Shown piece by piece: positions 9,382-25,656 of a DNA stretch of 64,000 nt. Position 1 is the stretch's first letter, and the number at the start of each line of letters is the position of its first letter. A model generated the notes under the pieces. The model had not been told where the DNA came from, made no database searches, and worked only from the letters and a program-made list of their open reading frames with translations. The translations under genes and the position numbers were made by a program. Source of the stretch: Thiotrichaceae bacterium (lineage in GTDB: Bacteria > Pseudomonadota > Gammaproteobacteria > Eutrophobiales > Eutrophobiaceae); assembly GCA_012960105.1 (NCBI GenBank), contig DUBV01000022.1, forward strand, positions 62,001 to 126,000, read 5' to 3'.

Positions 9382-12120
9382 CTATTTATTCTTTGAGCTT
9401 GCCACCATATCGGCCAAACGTTGACCCAGAATATAGCAAATATTGAAATTTAATTTGGCGACAATATTCGGGAAGAATTTCAGATCATCCTGCATGCGTT
9501 CATAATCAAATCGTAATACAGAGACATCATCTATTGCCACTACGTCGGCGGTTCTTTCAGTTTCACGAATATAGCCAATCTCACCAAAGACCTGCCCCGG
9601 CATCAATATGGCCAAGGAACGAGATTCACCATCATCTTTTCTGACTACTTCTGCTTTGCCAGAAAGAATTAAATACATATCTCGACCAATTGAACCTTGC
9701 TCAACTAATAGATCGCCTTTTTTAAACTCATTCAACTCAGAGATTAAAATTGCTTTGCGACGCTGATAATCCGTCATGTTCTGTAATAATGGACTGCCAT
9801 CCAGCACATCACGATCAACAGACATGGCGAGTATTTGATACAGACCTACAAGCCGTATGCGCGACATAATAATTGGCGTAATCAATAGATTAGCAAAGAT
9901 TGAAAACAACATGGTTGCTGCAGCCAACGCCCCAAACTGAGCAACGATAGTAAAATTTGAAAAGATAAGAACGCCAAAGCCCAGAGCCAGCGCGATACTG
10001 GATACTATCAGCGGCGTGGCTTCTTCACGTACAGCCGTATTGACTGCTTCGATATAATCGGAGGTGTATCTACATAGCTCATTATAGCGCGCTAACAAAT
10101 GAATAGTGCCATCAATAGCAATACCAATCGCTATTACCGCAACCATCGCCGTACCCGGATTTAGTGGAATATCTAAATAGCCCATAATACCAAACATTAA
10201 AGTGATTGGAATGATCGCCGGTACTAATGCAATGAGTCCACCTTTAAAAGAGGTAAACATCGCTGACATAATTAGAAAGATTAACGTCAATAAAATCACT
10301 AGCGCTTTTACCTGCGCAACCATCAAGCTTTCAGCCGCATGATTCACCATTAAGTTTTCACTAACGATATGAGATGTCATATGTGAGCCGGCAATTTCCT
10401 TCATGACATCTTCCAACTCTCTAATATACTTATTAAGCGAATGTGAGTCGGTAATGTTATGGCGCACAACAATATTGGCGCGACTGTAATCATGACTAAC
10501 ATAACTATCCAGATCACTTCGGTGAAAAAACATCAAATATTGAGCGATTAGTTTACGAGTTTCCGGAATGGAATCTTCTATACCGCTATTACGAAATTCA
10601 CGATTAATAAATTTTAAATGATCGGCTAAAGAGATGCTGCGATCGTAAACGCCCTGACTATCAAGGAAATCCTGTATGTCAGATAGTTTTTTAATATTTT
10701 TTGGTTCTTGAAATGCTTTTGCATGTTTAGATTCTAGCGATATAAAAAATATTTTTACCCCGGCAAGATCTTCATGTATGCGTTTGACATCTTGTATCAA
10801 CGGACGATCACTTTGAAAATACGATAATGGATCATTGGTAACGTAAAGTTTGGATGCCTGAAATACAAAAAACAAACATAACGCAGCAGTCATCATTAAT
10901 GTCGACAATGGAAAATGATCCTGAGAGTAACGAAATATACGCATCAAACGATTAGGCACACTATTCGTTTCTTTATCTTTAACCAGGCTGGTATTTTTAT
11001 CTGAAGCAAATATAGACAACATTAGAGGCAGAACTAATACCGTAATAAAGCCATTCGCCAGCATGGCAAAGGTTGCTGCAATTGAGAAATGCTGGATTAA
11101 CCCAATATTGCTAAAGAGATTACTGGCAAAACCTAATGCTGTCGTTAAGACGGTTAATACTAGCGGCAAGCCAATATGTTTTGCCATGTACTTAACAGCG
11201 TGTTTCCGTGCATCAGCTTGATCCTTATTTTCATCTAGTCCCCGCAAAAATGCCGCCATCAAATGCGTGTCTTCGGTCGATCCAATCACAATGATTAATG
11301 ATGGGATCATTGCGCTTAAAATATTTAGCGGTATCCCGACCCAGCCCAAAAATCCAAATGTCCAGATGATGGTAATTATCGATGTAACCAAAGGGACTAT
11401 GGCTGATAACCAGCTGCGCATGAATATTAAAATGGATAACACCAAAATCACAGCAGACAATGGACCGAGCAACATAAAATCTTCATAAAGACTTTGTTTT
11501 AATTCGGCATTAATTCTCGGCGGACCAACTTGTGTAATATACTCAAACTCGGAAAGATGAACATTAATATGATCTTCCAGCGCTTGATAAATTTCTCGGC
11601 TAAAATTATTTCTATCATCTGCGTCAACAATCGAAACGATCATTGCCGTAACATTGCCATCCTCGGAAAAGAAGTTACCTAGATACAAAGGATTCGCCAA
11701 AGCACTTTCTTTTGCGCTTAATGCTTCCTCGACAGTCTTCGGTGCAGACCGGAGTACTGGCCGGGAAACTATTTTTCCATCGACACCATGAATCGTATGT
11801 AAACTAAATATACCGTCTACACGACTAACACCTTGCGTCTTTTCTATAGCAAGATGTAATTGTTCAAGATGTAGTAATTTTTCCGGCGTCCAAAGATTCT
11901 CATCTTTGATATAGATAATGGTTTTATTATCGGTACCAAATTCACCCATCACTTTTTGATAAATAACACGTGCGGGATCATCTGCTGGAATTAAGCTATC
12001 AATACCTGTATCGACTTGTAATCGTAACATGCCGATAACAGCGAGCAGCGTGACCATTAATAAAAACGCCGCTACAGGAACACGGCGTTTATAACCCAAC
12101 ATGCACGCTTGCACTATCAT
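9382..12120 (-). CDS. MMPL/RND-type exporter with C-terminal cyclic nucleotide-binding domain
   Basis: A 912-residue inner-membrane RND-superfamily transporter of the MMPL/HpnN type. It has TM1 at about 14-34, a large periplasmic loop, a first sterol-sensing-like bundle starting near 220, a second loop and a second bundle ending near 755. Residues about 780-905 form a cNMP-binding (CRP-like) domain: FKKGDLLVEQGSIGRDMYLI, then GQVFGEIGYIRETERTADVV, with a phosphate-binding-cassette-like GEIG...R-T pattern. The domain suggests gating by a cyclic nucleotide, but binding is not proven. Its start overlaps the upstream LolA-like gene (ATGA), so both are translated together. Family members export lipids or hopanoids; substrate unknown. 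Confidence 0.88.
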   Translation of the reverse strand: MIVQACMLGYKRRVPVAAFLLMVTLLAVIGMLRLQVDTGIDSLIPADDPARVIYQKVMGEFGTDNKTIIYIKDENLWTPEKLLHLEQLHLAIEKTQGVSRVDGIFSLHTIHGVDGKIVSRPVLRSAPKTVEEALSAKESALANPLYLGNFFSEDGNVTAMIVSIVDADDRNNFSREIYQALEDHINVHLSEFEYITQVGPPRINAELKQSLYEDFMLLGPLSAVILVLSILIFMRSWLSAIVPLVTSIITIIWTFGFLGWVGIPLNILSAMIPSLIIVIGSTEDTHLMAAFLRGLDENKDQADARKHAVKYMAKHIGLPLVLTVLTTALGFASNLFSNIGLIQHFSIAATFAMLANGFITVLVLPLMLSIFASDKNTSLVKDKETNSVPNRLMRIFRYSQDHFPLSTLMMTAALCLFFVFQASKLYVTNDPLSYFQSDRPLIQDVKRIHEDLAGVKIFFISLESKHAKAFQEPKNIKKLSDIQDFLDSQGVYDRSISLADHLKFINREFRNSGIEDSIPETRKLIAQYLMFFHRSDLDSYVSHDYSRANIVVRHNITDSHSLNKYIRELEDVMKEIAGSHMTSHIVSENLMVNHAAESLMVAQVKALVILLTLIFLIMSAMFTSFKGGLIALVPAIIPITLMFGIMGYLDIPLNPGTAMVAVIAIGIAIDGTIHLLARYNELCRYTSDYIEAVNTAVREEATPLIVSSIALALGFGVLIFSNFTIVAQFGALAAATMLFSIFANLLITPIIMSRIRLVGLYQILAMSVDRDVLDGSPLLQNMTDYQRRKAILISELNEFKKGDLLVEQGSIGRDMYLILSGKAEVVRKDDGESRSLAILMPGQVFGEIGYIRETERTADVVAIDDVSVLRFDYERMQDDLKFFPNIVAKLNFNICYILGQRLADMVASSKNK

Positions 12121-13031
12121 TCTCTTGCTTCCTCTATCATGTCCTCAAACATTTCAAAATCAACTTCATCCATAGTCGGTTCCTCTACAGGTTCTTCATA
12201 CGGATAATGCTCATATAACCATTGGGCAGTAAATACTTCGGCAGGAACATAATCATGTGAAAACACACGCCTGGTTATTTTGATTAATGATTGATGCTGT
12301 AGTTTTTTATCTTCCATTAAAATCATATTCGCGCGCCACATATCGCCATCAACGGCTTTAAGATTATGGTGCGTCTGTGTACGTGATATACGTCCCCGCT
12401 TATCATAATGATACGTTAATGTAATATATAAGTTATCCTGCTGCACAAAGTGCTTTCGTAAAATTTGTTTTTTTTCAAACTCATCATCAGCGCGATAAAC
12501 ATCCAGTATAAAATATTTAATACCTTCCATTTCTCCATCATCACGACGTTCATAATAATGATCAGACAATACTTCGCCAGTCAGATTTTCTACCGAAAAA
12601 TCGGTGCCAAGAAAATTATCATTACTACCTTCGCCGGCACTTTCGATTAACTGCTCACCAAACGCAGGCAAATAAATATATTTCTTTGTATTGCCATCAA
12701 CATCACGATTCGCTAACAGAGCGACACCTTTTACTTCTCTTGGGTATTCAAACAATAATAAAAAATCTACCGAACCATCTTTCTCTACTCTTGAGTAACG
12801 TTTGGCTTTACGTGTATCACGTTTACCATGTCGATCTTCCATCACCATGGATTGTTCCTCATAAATATAGGGAAACTGTTGATGACGCTTTTGAACTTCT
12901 TCCATTATTTCATCACCACTAGTTTCTTTACTGACATAAGCAAAGCTCTCTTGCGCAAGCAGACAACTAATCAGTAAAACAAATACAGTAGATTTATAAG
13001 GTAAAGATTTCATCAGAATTTGTTTATGCAA
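12117..13031 (-). CDS. Outer-membrane lipoprotein-sorting (LolA-like) periplasmic protein
   Basis: A 304-residue secreted protein with a signal peptide (hydrophobic FVLLISCLLAQESFA, cleavage probably after SFA near residue 32). The body matches the LolA-like family often paired with MMPL exporters: YSRVEKDGSVDFLLLFEYP, VKGVALLANRD, KKYIYLPAF and the late GRISRTQTHHN. The fold would give a hydrophobic half-barrel for carrying a lipid through the periplasm. The tail is strongly acidic. It overlaps the exporter by four bases and begins 3 bases after pqiC, so it sits inside the pqi unit and probably takes lipid from or to the exporter. Confidence 0.8.
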   Translation of the reverse strand: MHKQILMKSLPYKSTVFVLLISCLLAQESFAYVSKETSGDEIMEEVQKRHQQFPYIYEEQSMVMEDRHGKRDTRKAKRYSRVEKDGSVDFLLLFEYPREVKGVALLANRDVDGNTKKYIYLPAFGEQLIESAGEGSNDNFLGTDFSVENLTGEVLSDHYYERRDDGEMEGIKYFILDVYRADDEFEKKQILRKHFVQQDNLYITLTYHYDKRGRISRTQTHHNLKAVDGDMWRANMILMEDKKLQHQSLIKITRRVFSHDYVPAEVFTAQWLYEHYPYEEPVEEPTMDEVDFEMFEDMIEEARE

Positions 13032-13034
13032 ACA

Positions 13035-13640
13035 TTACTCTTGGTTAATTATAGAGTCGGCAATACGCGCACTGAGTTCACCGTATAATTGTCGCATTGA
13101 TGCGACCATCTGGTCATAGTTATCTTTTTCTATGCTCTTTTCACTTTGAAGTTCAGCACTAAATACGCCTAGCGATTCTGTTTGAGCGCTGCTGCTAAGT
13201 TGCCAACGCGCAACAAGTTGTACGATGTTATTAACATCGAGTTCAAATTGTTCGATGTGAATTTGCACACGATAGTCCGGTGATGACGTAGAACGATTTA
13301 AAGGCGTGGCAACATCAATTGTTGATAATAAGCGTGATAAGTTTCTTGCCATGCTGCGTAGCAAGTTCTTACGTAAGTTTTCTCCCCACTGATTTCCATC
13401 TGAAAACTCCAGTCGACTTTCACCAACACGTGAAGCAATTTGAAAACGTTCCAGATATTGCGGAATATGTAAATCAAGTATCTCAATACTAAGAGGTCTA
13501 ACTGCTGAGACCGTTTCGCTAGCGTAGTCGACCGGCTCTACCAAATAATATCGTGTTGGTGTTGTGCCTCCGCCCATACAAGCACTTAATAGGCTGGTAA
13601 CAAATAACAACAGACTTAATTTACAACTCGAATTCAACAT
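13035..13640 (-). CDS. pqiC: PqiC-type lipoprotein (ABC-type transport auxiliary component)
   Basis: A 201-residue lipoprotein with signal peptide and lipobox LLSAC, Cys at residue 21. The mature start TTPTRYYLVEPVDYA and the pattern IEILDLHIPQYLERFQI fit the PqiC/DUF330 family. PqiC is an outer-membrane lipoprotein that forms rings docking with the PqiB tube, completing the route between membranes. It lies 21 bases after pqiB and 3 bases before the LolA-like gene. Confidence 0.85.
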   Translation of the reverse strand: MLNSSCKLSLLLFVTSLLSACMGGGTTPTRYYLVEPVDYASETVSAVRPLSIEILDLHIPQYLERFQIASRVGESRLEFSDGNQWGENLRKNLLRSMARNLSRLLSTIDVATPLNRSTSSPDYRVQIHIEQFELDVNNIVQLVARWQLSSSAQTESLGVFSAELQSEKSIEKDNYDQMVASMRQLYGELSARIADSIINQE

Positions 13641-13661
13641 TATTTTTTATACTCCATAGGT

Positions 13662-15341
13662 CTACTCATCCTTGCCAAAAATCAAAGATTGCGGGTTACG
13701 TTCCAGAGTCTCAACTAATGAGCGAATAGAACGTGCCGTCTCTTCCAGTTCGCCGGTTAATTTAATCAGGTTATATTGTGCCGGCGAATTTGGCTCGAGT
13801 ATTTTATTGGTTCTGCCCAAGGTGACGATTAAACTTTCCAGCGCTAGATGACCGGCATTGATTGCTTCCTGAATATTCGACTCGTCTACTTTCTGCATAA
13901 TAGTCTTGAATTTATTCAACGATATTTGCAAGTCTTCTACTGCTGTAGGAATACCCGGTAAGGTAATTAATTTGTTTGCATTGCCTATTGTTTTATCGGC
14001 AGTAATTAATGTTGAGTTAGCATTCTTAATAGTATCGAGTAATACCGTTGTTACTTCATCAATATCAATGGCATTAAACTTGGCTAACAAGTCTTCAACC
14101 GACTTAGTAATGGCACCAAAATTCGCCGTTCCTAATGTTGGTAATTCTGGAAACTGTGTTTCTTCGCCGCTGAGACTAATCGGCGTATCCGGATGCATGT
14201 CTAGTTCGACATATAACTGACTGGTTAATAAGCTACCTGTTTTCAAACGCGCTCTAAGTCCACGTTCAACTAATGTATCCAGAGTTCGATAAGAGGAACT
14301 GGTATCTTCGCTACCACGCTCGATAATTCTTTGTAATTCAATCTCAATCAAAACAGGAATACGGAAAGTTGTATCTTCTTTATCAAACTCGAGACGGACA
14401 TCTAACACCGAACCTACTTTAATACCTTTAAATTCAACTGGTGCGCCTAGACTTAAGCCGCGCACAGAGCTGTCGAAGAACATAATGAATTTTAGCTTGC
14501 GGGTATAGGAACGTTCTTCAAGCACGTCAAAACTTTCATTCAACGTAAAAACCAGGTTATCTACATCAGTTGACGCTTGTTCCAAAGTTTCTGGCGTATC
14601 AAATGCAATACCGCCAAACATCAATGAACGTATCGATTCGGTTTGTACTTTAAATCCATCTGCACCCATAGAGACATTAATACCGCTAACATTCCAGAAA
14701 TAAGTATTACCTCGGATAAGTTGATCAAAGGGATCTTTAATAAAAGCATGAACATAAACGCTCTTACGATCATTACCCAGCTCATAGCCTAAAACTTCAC
14801 CGGCAAGCAAACCTTGATAATAAATTGGAGAACCACGATCAATCGAACCAAGCTTCTGAGTTACCAGCACGATTTCTTTACCTTGCTCGTCAGCTTTAAC
14901 AACGGGTTGTTTTTCCAAGCCAACGAAATGTCGCTGTGCAGCACCGGGACCAGGTTCAATTTCAATATATGCGCCTGATATTAATGTACTCAGACCAGAA
15001 GCACCTTGTAAACCAAGTTGCGGTTTCACTACCCAGAAACGAGTACTACGGCGTAGAAATTTCTCTGAACCCTGACTGAATTCGGCCGTTAGGATGACAT
15101 TCGAAAAATCATCACTGAATTTAATGCGTTCAACAACGCCGATATCTACATTCTTATATTTGACCTTGGTTTTACCTACTTCAATTCCTTCCGCCGTTTT
15201 AAAGCTAATACTGATCTGCGGACCTTGTTCAGATAGAGTTTTCACCACTAGCCAGCCTCCTACCAACAAGGTAATAAGAGGGATTATCCAGACGATAGAA
15301 GGGCCGGATTGTTTACTTACTTGTGGGCTTGAGATTTCCAT
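13662..15341 (-). CDS. pqiB: PqiB-type intermembrane transport protein (three MCE domains)
   Basis: A 559-residue protein, close to E. coli PqiB (546). One TM near residues 17-35 (IVWIIPLITLLVGGWLVV) anchors it in the inner membrane. Three MCE domains follow, roughly residues 40-130, 160-225 and 285-390; each opens with a beta motif such as GIEVGKTKVKYKNVDIGVV, YQGLLAGEVLGY and LGAPVEFKGIKVGSVL. A C-terminal helical needle (about 405-545) ends the protein. Such hexamers form a periplasm-spanning tube for lipids. It is separated from pqiA by a 160-bp repeat element. Confidence 0.92.
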   Translation of the reverse strand: MEISSPQVSKQSGPSIVWIIPLITLLVGGWLVVKTLSEQGPQISISFKTAEGIEVGKTKVKYKNVDIGVVERIKFSDDFSNVILTAEFSQGSEKFLRRSTRFWVVKPQLGLQGASGLSTLISGAYIEIEPGPGAAQRHFVGLEKQPVVKADEQGKEIVLVTQKLGSIDRGSPIYYQGLLAGEVLGYELGNDRKSVYVHAFIKDPFDQLIRGNTYFWNVSGINVSMGADGFKVQTESIRSLMFGGIAFDTPETLEQASTDVDNLVFTLNESFDVLEERSYTRKLKFIMFFDSSVRGLSLGAPVEFKGIKVGSVLDVRLEFDKEDTTFRIPVLIEIELQRIIERGSEDTSSSYRTLDTLVERGLRARLKTGSLLTSQLYVELDMHPDTPISLSGEETQFPELPTLGTANFGAITKSVEDLLAKFNAIDIDEVTTVLLDTIKNANSTLITADKTIGNANKLITLPGIPTAVEDLQISLNKFKTIMQKVDESNIQEAINAGHLALESLIVTLGRTNKILEPNSPAQYNLIKLTGELEETARSIRSLVETLERNPQSLIFGKDE

Positions 15342-15348
15342 ATTTCCT

Positions 15349-15508
15349 ATACCCGTGATACTTGGAAATGTATATTTAGAGTGCGTCTGTTTTCATTCAG
15401 GACAAGGCGCGACGATGCCGCATGGTCATTCCCTGCAAAGAGGAGTAACGCCGTCATGGATGAAAACAGGCGTGCTATGGATATTGCATTTTCAGGTATC
15501 ATGGGTAT
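15349..15508 (-). repeat. MITE-like element B, copy 1 (160 bp)
   Basis: The left end is ATACCCGTGATACTTGGAAATG and the right end reads CATTTTCAGGTATCATGGGTAT on the same strand, an imperfect terminal inverted repeat of about 22 bp (one or two mismatches plus one inserted base). The interior (GCATGGTCATTCCCTGCAAAG, GATGAAAACAGGCGTGCTAT) recurs at 25476-25656. It fills nearly the whole pqiA-pqiB gap, ending 5 bases from the pqiA stop codon. No coding frame; non-autonomous mobile element is the best reading. Orientation sign here is arbitrary. Confidence 0.8.
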
Positions 15509-15513
15509 CTATC

Positions 15514-16767
15514 TTATTGTTCTTTTTCTCTAACATTATCCCAAATCAGTCTAGGATCAAAACTTTGCGCGGCAAACATGGTAATAACGACGGCAGCCGC
15601 AAAGAAAATAGCGCCAATTCCTGGCCGTATTGTTGATAATGCATCGAGACTCACCAAAGCAGATAGTAGGCCAACCAGAAAAATATCGACCATAGACCAG
15701 GCACCGACTATTTCGGTTATTCGATATAATAGTGTGCGATCACGAGGCCGCCAGACGGACTTTTTTTGCACACTGATTAATAGAAAACTCAGTGTAAATA
15801 ATTTTGTTACCGGCACAATAATACTGGCGACAAAGATAATCAGAGCTAATCCCCACATACCCGATTCTATTAAATGTAAGATACCGCTAATAATAGTACT
15901 GGGCTCACCTTTACCAAACCGTATTACTGTCATCACAGGATAGACATTAGCCGGGATTAACATCACCATTGCTGCGACCAACAACGCCCAGGTCGTTTCG
16001 ATGCTGTCCTTTTTTCTATGATGCAATACCGAATTACATCGAGGACAGTGTTGATCTTCATCAGAATCAAGGTTCAAATCAATACTCAAAAAGCCACAAG
16101 TATGGCAATTCAGAACGTTCTTATTCTCTCTATGAGCATTGGATAAATCGACAGAGGCATGTCCGGTTAATACCCAAAATTCATGAGGATTAAAACTTGC
16201 TCGTGCCGCTGTATAAATAATTAGCAAAAAAGCAAGAGCAAGAAGAGCTGGACCGAAAATCACATTTGCCAAATCTTGTAACTTAACAATGCCAATTAAT
16301 ACACCGAGCATGAATACACCGATCAGACTCCACGGCATCAGAGCATTCACCAAACTGTATACCCGACCCACATATGGAGCCACTTTCCCCAAACTTGCCG
16401 GAATCAATAAATACAACATGCCGATGATAACAATTAGTGGGAATAGGATACTGGTGATAAATATAAGTATGCCAAGTTCGCCCATACCCATCTCGTACAT
16501 AGCCCAACCACTGGAGAATAAAATATTTTCAACGACACGACCGCTCAATTCCAAAGAGATAAAAGGAAAACTATTGGCAATAATGAAAAGTATTAAGGCA
16601 GCAACATACAACGCTAATGTGCGGTTTAATGAATCGGGGACATGACGATAAAGCAAGTTGCCGCAATGCAAGCAATTCGCCTTTGCGCCCACAGGGATCA
16701 ACTCGTAATGATGCAGATTATCGCACTCGTGACAGGCGATGATTTCCCCAATTAAACTATCAGCCAT
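15514..16767 (-). CDS. pqiA: PqiA-type inner-membrane protein
   Basis: A 417-residue polytopic membrane protein built from two similar halves. Each half starts with a zinc-ribbon-like four-Cys module: CHEC...CLHC at residues 12-36 and CHTC...CPRC near residues 221-245. Each is followed by about four TM helices (first half about 50-200, second about 258-405). PqiA is the inner-membrane partner that feeds lipid to the PqiB tube. It is the first gene of the minus-strand set pqiA-pqiB-pqiC-LolA-like-MMPL exporter. Confidence 0.92.
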   Translation of the reverse strand: MADSLIGEIIACHECDNLHHYELIPVGAKANCLHCGNLLYRHVPDSLNRTLALYVAALILFIIANSFPFISLELSGRVVENILFSSGWAMYEMGMGELGILIFITSILFPLIVIIGMLYLLIPASLGKVAPYVGRVYSLVNALMPWSLIGVFMLGVLIGIVKLQDLANVIFGPALLALAFLLIIYTAARASFNPHEFWVLTGHASVDLSNAHRENKNVLNCHTCGFLSIDLNLDSDEDQHCPRCNSVLHHRKKDSIETTWALLVAAMVMLIPANVYPVMTVIRFGKGEPSTIISGILHLIESGMWGLALIIFVASIIVPVTKLFTLSFLLISVQKKSVWRPRDRTLLYRITEIVGAWSMVDIFLVGLLSALVSLDALSTIRPGIGAIFFAAAVVITMFAAQSFDPRLIWDNVREKEQ

Positions 16768-17129: not shown

Positions 17130-20100
17130 ATGAACCTAAGACTATTTACTTCCAATATTCTTGTTGCGTTTGCTTATTTCGTAGGCGGTTACGCCGGTTT
17201 ATCACTGACCAATCTACTTGGCAATGCAGCAGCTATTTGGCCTGCGGCAGGTGTCGCTTTAGCTGCAATTCTGGTTTGCGGAACCCGAATATTACCTGGA
17301 ATATTATTAGGTAGCATATTTGTTCAAACCACGGCTTTTCTTGATACATCCAGCACTGAAAGGATTATTTCATCTTTATCAATCGGCACCATTATTTCAG
17401 TAGCAGCAATGTGCCAGGCATGGATTGGGGCAAAGCTTGTGCGTCACATTTTTGATCATGACGAAGCCTTGTTGAAGGAACGATCTATTATTCTTTTCTG
17501 CCTGTTGGCTGGGCCCGTTAGCTGCTTACTCTCTGCTACCGTTAGTATTAGCACCCTATGGTTTAAGGAAATCATAACCGCGACTGACATGCCTCTTGCA
17601 TGGAGCACATGGTGGATTGGCGATTCTATAGGCGTTCTGGTTTTTACTCCGATATTACTTTGTTTTTTTGCAAGGCCACGTCACATCTGGAGACAACGTA
17701 TTAACAACGTTGCCCTGCCTTTGTGTGTCCTGTCCATGACTGCATTTATTGTATATAAATTTTCTTATAATCAGGAATTACAATACATTGAAGATGCGTT
17801 TGAAAAAAATACAATAAATTTTAAATATGAATTGGAAAGCAGTATCAATTTACATTTGAATACGGCCAAGAATTTAAAGGAATTTTTTGATAGTTCTAAT
17901 AAAGTATCCCCTGAAGAATTTCCGCTTTTTGTCCAGCCAAAATTATCTCGACATCCCGAAATACAAGCGCTTGAATGGATCCCAAAAGTGCTCCATAAGG
18001 ATCGTGAATCTTTTGAAGATCGTTTAGGCACACAAATCAAAATACCAAATCACATAGGGAAAATGGAAGTTTCTAGCGAAAAGGAATTCTATTTTCCCAT
18101 ACAGTATCTGGAGCCCATTGCAGGCAATGAAAATGCACTGGGTTTCGATATCAGTAACAATCCTGAGGCACTAAAAGCAGCAGAAGCAGCATGTGTTTCT
18201 GGCAAGGTTGCTGTGACCGATGCAATAAAACTTGTACAAGAATCAAGCGATCAGATTGGCGTTGTTTTTTATGCGCCAGTGTACAAAAAAAATGACCCTG
18301 ATAAAAAATGCGAGACCTTATCCGGCTTCACTGCCAGTGTTTTTCGTCTGGAAAAAGAAATTATAAACATTCATAAAAAACATCCAGATATAAAATTATC
18401 TGTTTTATTAAAAAATAATTCGCTTTTATTATTTAGCGATGCTCCAGTAAAAGAAAAAACGCATACTATCCCAAATGAATTTCAACTTGAACGCAGCTAT
18501 CAATTACCTGTTGCAAACCAGCAATGGGATCTTGTTTTTTTTCCTGCAACCGAATTCATCTCTTTTTACTCTTCATGGACAGTATGGCTGATCATTGTTG
18601 GCGGATTTTTAATTGCAGGATTATCTGGCATGGGTTTGTTGATGTTGACAGGACGAACTTTACAAACCGAGCAAAAGATAAAATTAAGAACGGCAGAACT
18701 TCAAATTGAAGTCATAGAACATAGACTATCTAAAAAAGCGATTGCAGACAGTGAAGTTAAATTTCGTAACCTCGTTGAAGGCTCATTACAAGGCATCTTC
18801 GTGCATGATAATTTCAAGCCTCTTTTTGCAAATCAAAAATGTGCTGATATATTTGGCTATAGTAATCCTGAAGAAATACTGGAACTGGATTCAATATTAG
18901 AAGCATTCTGGGTACCGGAAGAACAAGAACGGATGGAACGTTACAAGACAAGTCGGATGAATGGAGATGAAGTCTTCGACTTTTTCGAATGTCGAGGTAA
19001 GCGTAAAGATGGTGGCTTATTCTGGTTTGAGAACTACGTGACTTTGGTTGACTGGTCAGGTGAAAAAGCAATCATGGGCACCGTAATCGATATTACTCAA
19101 CGTAAACAAGCGGATGAACAACTCAACTATCAGGCCAGTCATGATGCCTTGACAGGACTCATCAACCGTCATGAATTTGAGCGACGTGCTGAACGTTTAC
19201 TTGCCACAGCTCGCGCGGATAAAAGTGAACATGCATTCTGTTACATGGATCTTGATCAATTCAAGATAGTGAACGATACCAGTGGTCATACCGCGGGCGA
19301 TGAAATGCTACGTCAACTTAGTGCTTTGCTAAATGGTATCGTAAGACACCGTGATACTGTGACTCGTCTGGGCGGCGATGAGTTTGGCGTATTAATGGAA
19401 CACTGTTCACTTGATGATGCACATCGGGTTGCTACGTCAATACAAAAGGCGATACAAGAATTTCAATTTTCATGGGAGGGACATAGTTTTAAAGTTGGTG
19501 TCAGTATGGGCTTAGTAGCCATTACTGAAACTGACTTGAGCCTATCCAGAATTTTAAGCGATGCAGATATTGCCTGTTATATGGCCAAGGACAAGGGACG
19601 TAATCGTATCCAAGTCTATTATCCAGAAGATGCTGAGACAGCACAACGTCATGGTGAGATGCAATGGGTAACACGAATTAATCAGGCCATTGAAGAGGAA
19701 AAATTTTGTCTCTATGCACAAGTCATCGATCCACTGGATAAATCTAACGACTCACACTATGAGATCCTAATCAGGATGTATGGTGAAAATGATGACGTCA
19801 TTCCACCGGACGCTTTTCTACCTGCTGCTGAACGTTACAACTTGATTTCAAAAATTGATCGCTGGGTTATTAATGCGACTTTTGATTTACTCGAAAACCA
19901 TACATCTTTTTTAATGAAGAATGGCTTTTGTTCCATTAATCTCTCGGGACAATCACTAGCCGATATGGATTTTCAGGAATATGTTATTAATGAATTTATC
20001 CATCGAAATATACCACCAGGAAAGATTTGTTTTGAAATAACAGAGACGGCAGCAATAACAAATTTAAGTGTCGCTACCTTGTTTCTCTCAAAAATGAGAG

Positions 20101-20420
20101 TGCTGGGCTGCCGTTTTGCACTGGATGATTTTGGTAGTGGATTATCATCATTTGGTTATTTGAAAAATATGGAAGTGGATTATTTAAAGATCGACGGCAT
20201 GTTTGTTAAAGATATTGTCGATGACCCTATCGATCACGCCATGGTTAAATCGATTAATGAGATTGGTCATGTCATGGGCATGCAGACCATTGCTGAATTT
20301 GTCGAGAATGATGAAATCAAAGGTATGCTACGGGAAATCGGCGTAAATTATGTGCAAGGTTATGGTATCGGCAAGCCAATACCTTTTAACGATCTATTAA
20401 TAAACTTTAAAAATAATTAA
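17130..20420 (+). CDS. MASE1-CHASE-PAS-GGDEF-EAL cyclic-di-GMP enzyme
   Basis: A 1096-residue sensor enzyme. MASE1 membrane region is at about 1-215 (GNAAAIWPAAGVALA typical), a periplasmic CHASE domain at about 225-440, a TM near 487-510, PAS at about 540-655, GGDEF at about 665-830 and EAL at about 850-1090. The diguanylate cyclase site is intact (RLGGDEFGVL near 745) and RHRD five residues before it is a product-inhibition I-site. In the phosphodiesterase domain EAL is replaced by EIL (HYEILIRM), but NLSGQSL, FEITE, DDFGSG, YLKID and QGYGIGKP are kept, so activity is likely. Such proteins make or break c-di-GMP in response to an extracytoplasmic signal. The upstream ribosome binding site is weak. 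Confidence 0.92.
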   Translation: MNLRLFTSNILVAFAYFVGGYAGLSLTNLLGNAAAIWPAAGVALAAILVCGTRILPGILLGSIFVQTTAFLDTSSTERIISSLSIGTIISVAAMCQAWIGAKLVRHIFDHDEALLKERSIILFCLLAGPVSCLLSATVSISTLWFKEIITATDMPLAWSTWWIGDSIGVLVFTPILLCFFARPRHIWRQRINNVALPLCVLSMTAFIVYKFSYNQELQYIEDAFEKNTINFKYELESSINLHLNTAKNLKEFFDSSNKVSPEEFPLFVQPKLSRHPEIQALEWIPKVLHKDRESFEDRLGTQIKIPNHIGKMEVSSEKEFYFPIQYLEPIAGNENALGFDISNNPEALKAAEAACVSGKVAVTDAIKLVQESSDQIGVVFYAPVYKKNDPDKKCETLSGFTASVFRLEKEIINIHKKHPDIKLSVLLKNNSLLLFSDAPVKEKTHTIPNEFQLERSYQLPVANQQWDLVFFPATEFISFYSSWTVWLIIVGGFLIAGLSGMGLLMLTGRTLQTEQKIKLRTAELQIEVIEHRLSKKAIADSEVKFRNLVEGSLQGIFVHDNFKPLFANQKCADIFGYSNPEEILELDSILEAFWVPEEQERMERYKTSRMNGDEVFDFFECRGKRKDGGLFWFENYVTLVDWSGEKAIMGTVIDITQRKQADEQLNYQASHDALTGLINRHEFERRAERLLATARADKSEHAFCYMDLDQFKIVNDTSGHTAGDEMLRQLSALLNGIVRHRDTVTRLGGDEFGVLMEHCSLDDAHRVATSIQKAIQEFQFSWEGHSFKVGVSMGLVAITETDLSLSRILSDADIACYMAKDKGRNRIQVYYPEDAETAQRHGEMQWVTRINQAIEEEKFCLYAQVIDPLDKSNDSHYEILIRMYGENDDVIPPDAFLPAAERYNLISKIDRWVINATFDLLENHTSFLMKNGFCSINLSGQSLADMDFQEYVINEFIHRNIPPGKICFEITETAAITNLSVATLFLSKMRVLGCRFALDDFGSGLSSFGYLKNMEVDYLKIDGMFVKDIVDDPIDHAMVKSINEIGHVMGMQTIAEFVENDEIKGMLREIGVNYVQGYGIGKPIPFNDLLINFKNN

Positions 20421-25475: not shown

Positions 25476-25656
25476 ATACCCATGATACTTGGAAATGCAG
25501 AAATTAGGGTGCGTTTGTTTTTATTCAGAGTAAGACGCGATGACACGCATGGTCACTCCCTGCAAGGAGTAGCACCAACAGTAGGCGCTTTAGGCGACGC
25601 TGCACTGGATGAAAACAGGCGTGCTATAAACCTGCATTTCGAAGTATCATGGGTAT
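25476..25656 (+). repeat. MITE-like element B, copy 2 (181 bp)
   Basis: The ends are ATACCCATGATACTTGGAAA and TTCGAAGTATCATGGGTAT, extending to a 23-bp terminal inverted repeat with one mismatch (TTGG against TTCG when reversed). The interior is shared with 15349-15508 in the same orientation, but this copy has about 28 extra bases (CAACAGTAGGCGCTTTAGGC and following) after GGAGTAGCAC. It lies between the divergent PPi-PFK and bepA-type genes. No coding frame. Confidence 0.82.

Follow-up and report, generated by a model that had tools for sequence, protein, structure and literature searches.

An operon joining pqiABC to a LolA-fold carrier and an MMPL transporter with a cyclic-nucleotide-binding domain in a Thiotrichaceae bacterium

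The window analyzed here is a stretch of 64,000 nucleotides from Thiotrichaceae bacterium (GenBank assembly GCA_012960105.1, contig DUBV01000022.1, positions 62,001 to 126,000), which encodes five envelope proteins in the minus-strand gene order pqiA, pqiB, pqiC, LolA-like and MMPL. The last of them carries a cyclic-nucleotide-binding domain at its C-terminus, and it is referred to below as the MMPL-sensor protein. The data support that these five genes form a real conserved unit rather than a product of chance, because their order recurs across classes and phyla. That together they make up a single system moving lipids across the envelope, an extended form of Pqi in which a pump and a carrier feed an MCE tube, seems to us an evenly balanced proposition. 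A more detailed proposal is offered more tentatively: a five-part lipid exporter, driven by protons and gated by cyclic nucleotides, whose MMPL protein and LolA-fold carrier energize and direct a Pqi tube, the pump and carrier having exchanged the barrel-like outer-membrane partner of an older LolA/MMPL system for Pqi.

The original prediction, made from the letters of the DNA, had named these five genes in this order, and the coordinates of the open reading frames (ORFs) agree with it. From pqiA to MMPL, the intergenic distances are 172, 21, 3, and -4 bp, the last three being the values claimed for the last four genes, and the -4 bp junction between the LolA-like and MMPL genes is an ATGA overlap. 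A terminator- or promoter-like site between pqiC and the LolA-like gene was sought at the locus, and none was found. While the gene set was right, the prediction overlooked both the cyclic-nucleotide-binding domain and a repeat element that explains the larger gap between pqiA and pqiB.

The claim that the genes belong to one set is strongly supported: the five-gene order is present in dozens of other genomes, and neither of the outcomes that the prediction had named as refuting it was observed. An orthologue of the LolA-like protein was found in 15 of 58 nearby genomes (window genome included), and in all 15 it has the operon neighbors in the same order, at LolA-like identities down to 35%; in G026 and G032 a contig end truncates the set, so that pqiA, or most of the LolA-like gene and all of the MMPL gene, is absent. 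When an MMPL alignment was searched against 84,980 species genomes, 80 loci were obtained, of which 54 are complete and collinear. Nine further loci, cut upstream by a contig end, lack pqiA, and the remainder are rearranged, fused, placed at contig ends, or devoid of pqi genes. According to the record names, which can be wrong for metagenome-assembled genomes (MAGs), the loci belong to Gamma-, Beta-, and Zetaproteobacteria, Magnetococcales, Nitrospinota, and Desulfobacterota, plus one MAG each labeled Verrucomicrobia and Anammoxibacter; a pure-culture record, Mariprofundus sp. EBB-1 (L108), is also among them. The Nitrospinota copies nest beside the clade of the window in both the MMPL and the PqiB trees, which suggests, if the MAG binning is correct, that the set has been transferred as a unit.

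In the Magnetococcales-type loci L198/L124, L199, and L200, the LolA-like and MMPL genes adjoin pqiABC in other orientations, and the Pqi proteins of these rearranged loci fall in a neighboring region of the PqiB tree, where their relatives are mostly plain. Genes that stay linked despite rearrangement argue for coupling more strongly than does a single inherited order. A blind check, in which a LolA profile was run against 369 genomes of the class, yielded seven high scorers (332-410 bits, ordinary LolA_like proteins reaching at most 163 bits). The full five-gene order surrounds all four of the new high scorers (4/4), and pqi genes occur in none of 16 ordinary LolA_like loci (p 2e-4). Co-occurrence was also examined in one sample of 398 Pseudomonadota genomes with a PqiB match threshold of E<=1e-60. 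PqiB is present in 181 of these genomes and the MMPL-sensor protein in 20; all 20 of the latter hold PqiB, compared with 161 of the 378 others (Fisher p 8e-8, co-occurrence p-values here ignoring the relatedness among genomes). In 15 of the 20, the two genes lie no more than 10 kb apart.

A further clue comes from pairs of MMPL-sensor and LolA-like genes that have no pqi genes beside them. Six such pairs were identified (L118 Thalassospira, L125, L135, L136 Sulfurimonas, L138 Methylobacter, and L209), and all of them are followed by a barrel-like gene, whose product of ~440-465 amino acids (aa) has a signal-like start and an outer-membrane-protein (OMP)-type C-terminus ending in F. This gene lies directly after the MMPL-sensor gene at L118:12780-14168, L135:12717-14114, L136:12697-14010, L138:12810-14126, and L209:4339-5700, and that of L125 is cut by the contig end. 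The label "barrel" is based on the signal-like N-terminus, the aromatic OMP-type C-terminus, a weak resemblance (E 3e-4 at best) to the gene in third place in ordinary LolA_like/MMPL clusters, and the porin prediction published for a like neighbor (PMC6304351); searches against Pfam and NCBIfam gave these proteins no family name. A barrel-like third gene is present in 14 of the 16 ordinary LolA_like control loci.

The barrel-like gene occurs in 0 of 51 testable pqi-linked loci versus four of seven testable pqi-less loci (p 8e-5), the three without it being L101, L117, and L119. Since it accompanies most of the pqi-less pairs and is absent from the testable pqi-linked loci, PqiABC appears to replace the barrel-like protein as the outer-membrane end of the MMPL-sensor/LolA pair. 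In a quick MMPL tree, which came with a long-branch warning, pqi versus barrel amounts to one change, and the barrel rows lie nearest the outgroup; an ancestral barrel later exchanged for pqi is the likely, if not certain, polarity. This swap points to PqiABC as the provider of the outer-membrane step in what was an older LolA/MMPL export system.

The three Pqi proteins have the expected anatomy. The product of pqiA (15514..16767, minus strand, 417 aa) is an inner-membrane protein of the PqiA/LetA family with two PqiA domains (PF04403 twice, E 2.4e-90, Pfam), and it reaches 286 bits with the family-level model TIGR00155, whose cut-off is 260. The gene pqiB (13662..15341, minus strand) encodes a periplasmic tube protein of 559 aa with three MlaD/MCE stretches (PF02470, E 1.9e-35, Pfam), while pqiC (13035..13640, minus strand) encodes an outer-membrane lipoprotein of 201 aa (ABC_trans_aux, PF03886, E 5e-30, Pfam) in which the lipobox LSAC occupies residues 18-21. 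Compared with their Escherichia coli counterparts, PqiA is 30% identical, PqiB 32% over an alignment spanning nearly the whole length, and PqiC 20%. All three miss the NCBIfam equivalog cut-offs (PqiA 252 of 562 bits, PqiB 475.9 of 525 with NF008070, and PqiC 33.7 of 200). Because these scores are missed while that of the family-level TIGR00155 is reached, the set is classed by its sequence as Pqi-type and not as an E. coli-type Pqi orthologue set.

The fourth gene (12117..13031, minus strand) encodes a periplasmic carrier of 304 aa with a signal-peptide-like N-terminus, assigned to PF17131 (LolA_like, E 4.8e-22, Pfam). Its ORF begins with TTG, and an ATG is present at 13010. The AlphaFold2 model of this protein (mean predicted local distance difference test, pLDDT, 90.9) has a LolA fold: in a Foldseek search the best matches were LolA3 of Porphyromonas gingivalis (9tp6, E 5.6e-19) and a Vibrio parahaemolyticus structure (3bk5), followed by LolA/LolB proteins. 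The protein does not match the LolA family PF03548, of which the sole match in the genome is another gene (G000:C51), so that a role as the lipoprotein LolA of the cell was discarded. At L121:9314-12439, in one MAG, LolA_like, MMPL, and the cyclic-nucleotide-binding domain are fused in a single ORF that lacks the first MMPL helix; this fusion counts in favor of the extended Pqi.

The fifth gene (9382..12120, minus strand) encodes an MMPL/RND transporter of 912 aa, in which two MMPL repeats (PF03176 twice, E 3.5e-27, Pfam) precede the presumably cytoplasmic C-terminal domain (PF00027). Its model (pLDDT 84.5) has the RND fold and is closest to MmpL4/5, NPC1, Patched, and HpnN (best Z 44.7 for NCR1, and 41.4 for MmpL5), with AcrB-type pumps also resembling it; HpnN and NPC1, together with the likewise similar MmpL3, are lipid movers. 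Scores are far under the equivalog cut-offs of HpnN (103.7 of 751.85 bits) and BstA (32.6 of 1400 bits). RND pumps hold a proton relay in transmembrane helices (TM) 4 and 10, and at these positions the MMPL protein has E283 and H286 in TM4, at least 90% conserved among 44 sequences, and D670 and H674 in TM10, which are invariant; these four residues are therefore candidates for a proton relay.

The cyclic-nucleotide-binding domain of this protein (9487..9729, minus strand; residues 798-878; PF00027, E 7.2e-20) contains the motif FGEIGYIRETERTA, and the phosphate-binding motif GE-x(7-9)-R-[TSV]-A is kept in 73 of 75 homologues. Relatives of this domain with solved structures in the PDB include cGMP- and cAMP-dependent kinases. 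A ligand for the putative sensor is possible, given that three class III cyclase domains are encoded in the genome. Next to the operon, a protein with MASE1, CHASE, PAS, GGDEF, and EAL domains is encoded divergently (17130-20420, plus strand), and a link of this neighbor to nucleotide signaling is possible.

The mechanism proposed here starts from what the data support, namely the anatomy and order of the genes, their co-occurrence, the exchange with the barrel-like gene, the folds of the LolA-like and MMPL proteins, and the conserved nucleotide motif. The two inner-membrane parts would be PqiA and the MMPL protein. The MMPL protein would lift a lipid or another hydrophobic molecule from the inner membrane, using the proton motive force through the acidic and histidine residues of TM4 and TM10, and would hand it to the soluble periplasmic LolA-like carrier. 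The carrier would then deliver it outward, into the route formed by PqiB as the MCE tube and PqiC as an outer-membrane ring, which in PqiABC systems are a hexamer and an octamer, respectively. The pump may be switched on or off when its C-terminal domain binds cAMP or cGMP. The joining of exporter, carrier, and MCE tube into one machine, as the original prediction had it, would be in line with the PqiABC/barrel-like exchange.

Several points weigh against this extended Pqi. Pumps with an RND fold need not move lipids, and both the lipid cargo and the contacts of the LolA-like and MMPL proteins with the Pqi proteins are inferred. The five proteins show correlated distances (r 0.76-0.91, the top values being 0.91 for LolA-MMPL and 0.88 for PqiA-PqiB), a point in favor of the extended Pqi, but such correlations are also produced by shared descent and joint transfer. 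Some Magnetococcales have the MMPL gene apart from pqi (L205, L208). In addition, the loci L182-L188, near Mariprofundaceae in the PqiB tree, hold same-clade pqiABC genes but no LolA/MMPL; the pump part appears to have been lost, and PqiABC can therefore work alone there.

Some of these observations also favor the main rival, in which two co-regulated routes operate without contact: the MMPL and LolA-like proteins would act outward alone, PqiABC would act alone, perhaps inward, and the operon would balance one lipid pool with no joint machine. This explanation is doubtful, although it has several facts on its side. pqiABC without the pair is found in L214-L220 as well as in L182-L188, the pair without pqi in L118, L135, L136, and L138, and a second, plain pqiABC in the genome of the window itself (G000:C36, L215); moreover, the distance correlation is highest inside each of the two pairs. 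However, the pqi-less pairs mostly have a barrel-like partner that is absent in the pqi-linked pairs, and this exchange is therefore more easily read as PqiABC giving the pair its outer-membrane step.

According to another explanation, the LolA-like protein would be a dedicated chaperone for the delivery of PqiC, a lipoprotein, to the outer membrane, with the MMPL protein releasing it, so that the pair would serve the assembly of Pqi and not the movement of lipids. That PqiC is a lipoprotein and that a LolA-fold carrier is encoded directly after its gene fit this idea. It is nevertheless improbable, given that the same type of carrier is also encoded beside MMPL and a barrel-like gene where PqiC is missing, that the genome has its own true LolA, and that plain pqiABC sets, including that of E. 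coli, manage without a LolA-like carrier. An accidental or merely inherited neighborhood of five envelope genes, to which the largely single-family sampling closest to the window might lend some credit, is very improbable and already contradicted by the conservation of the order across classes and phyla, the linkage kept through rearrangements, the 4/4 versus 0/16 result of the blind check, and the trade-off with the barrel-like gene.

Among known systems, PqiABC of E. coli (MG1655 b0950-b0952; PMC10897342) has the same order of PqiA, a PqiB with three MCE domains, and the lipoprotein PqiC; in contrast to the set of the window, the next gene is rmf, with neither a LolA-like nor an MMPL gene alongside. 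Pqi has no ATPase, and PqiA, if it is a transporter, could be passive or depend on an unidentified ATPase or on the proton motive force; its energy source, mechanism, regulation, and directionality have been stated to be unknown (PMC10897342). Ordinary LolA_like/MMPL clusters share with the window an MMPL gene adjacent to a PF17131-type LolA-fold carrier. However, in the loci read, their MMPL proteins are ~22% identical to that of the window and lack the nucleotide-binding domain, and their third gene encodes a barrel-like protein whose C-terminus is of the OMP type, where the window has pqiABC. Clusters of this kind have been described in Thalassolituus oleivorans, in which the MMPL-LolA protein TOL_3187 and an adjacent predicted porin are induced on C28 alkane (PMC6304351), and in Bacteroidetes, where the MMPL/LolA operon is iron-responsive (P. 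gingivalis PG1175-81; PMC10434189). HpnN, BstA, and MmpL3/4/5 have the MMPL/RND fold in common with the window protein, which adds a fused nucleotide sensor and differs in its partners. Mla and the Brucella Mpc system, an Mla-Pqi chimera (PMC12436622), represent MCE routes with an added energized inner-membrane part, as proposed here, but they are energized by an MlaFE-type ABC ATPase, whereas the set of the window has an MMPL pump. In L076 (11088-13588), and also in L073, L077, and L078, an Mla/Mpc-like cluster adjoins the five-gene set and encodes an ABC ATPase, a single-MCE protein, and an ABC_trans_aux-like lipoprotein.

A literature search, with most subscription journals and preprints outside its scope, returned no paper combining PqiB, MMPL, and LolA, or PqiABC and MMPL, and did not find "paraquat-inducible protein" together with MMPL or lipoprotein sorting. 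The five-gene combination is thus provisionally regarded as undescribed, consistent with the original prediction. Because it supplements pqiABC with a carrier, a nucleotide sensor, and a pump of the RND fold, the operon offers a direct handle on the power, direction, and regulation of Pqi, and suggests how this MCE tube might be powered and switched. The apparent exchange of one outer-membrane partner for another also connects MCE tubes with LolA/MMPL exporters, families that are mostly investigated separately.

No sixth component was recognized: in the flanks of the 80 loci, no further gene is common to more than six. The genes for an alpha/beta hydrolase and a Cupin_8 protein downstream of the set were rejected as parts of the system, as they recur within the same genus only. 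The second pqiABC of the window genome (G000:C36:1-4159) has no LolA/MMPL partners on its short contig; its pqiA is split into two ORFs, and its PqiB is 32% identical to that of the window.

Between pqiA and pqiB lies a palindromic element resembling miniature inverted-repeat transposable elements (15349..15508, ~160 bp, no strand assigned) with inverted ends of 22 nt, whose nested arms span 15349-15370/15487-15508 and 15372-15403/15453-15484. This stretch is matched 15 times in the genome, at ~9 places, and as RNA it would fold at -54 kcal/mol (z -4.5). Because a multicopy repeat fills the gap, and because the pqiA-pqiB gap of the same-genus relatives L040 and L041 is 2 and -23 bp, the 172-bp gap is an insertion into an originally tight operon, and a genuine operon break at this point was discarded. 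The copy inside the pqi operon could affect the operon transcript. A further copy of the repeat lies in the window at ~25476-25656, the element measuring ~160-180 bp; the alignment of repeat copies, poor for two copies, was used for the two copies of the window alone.

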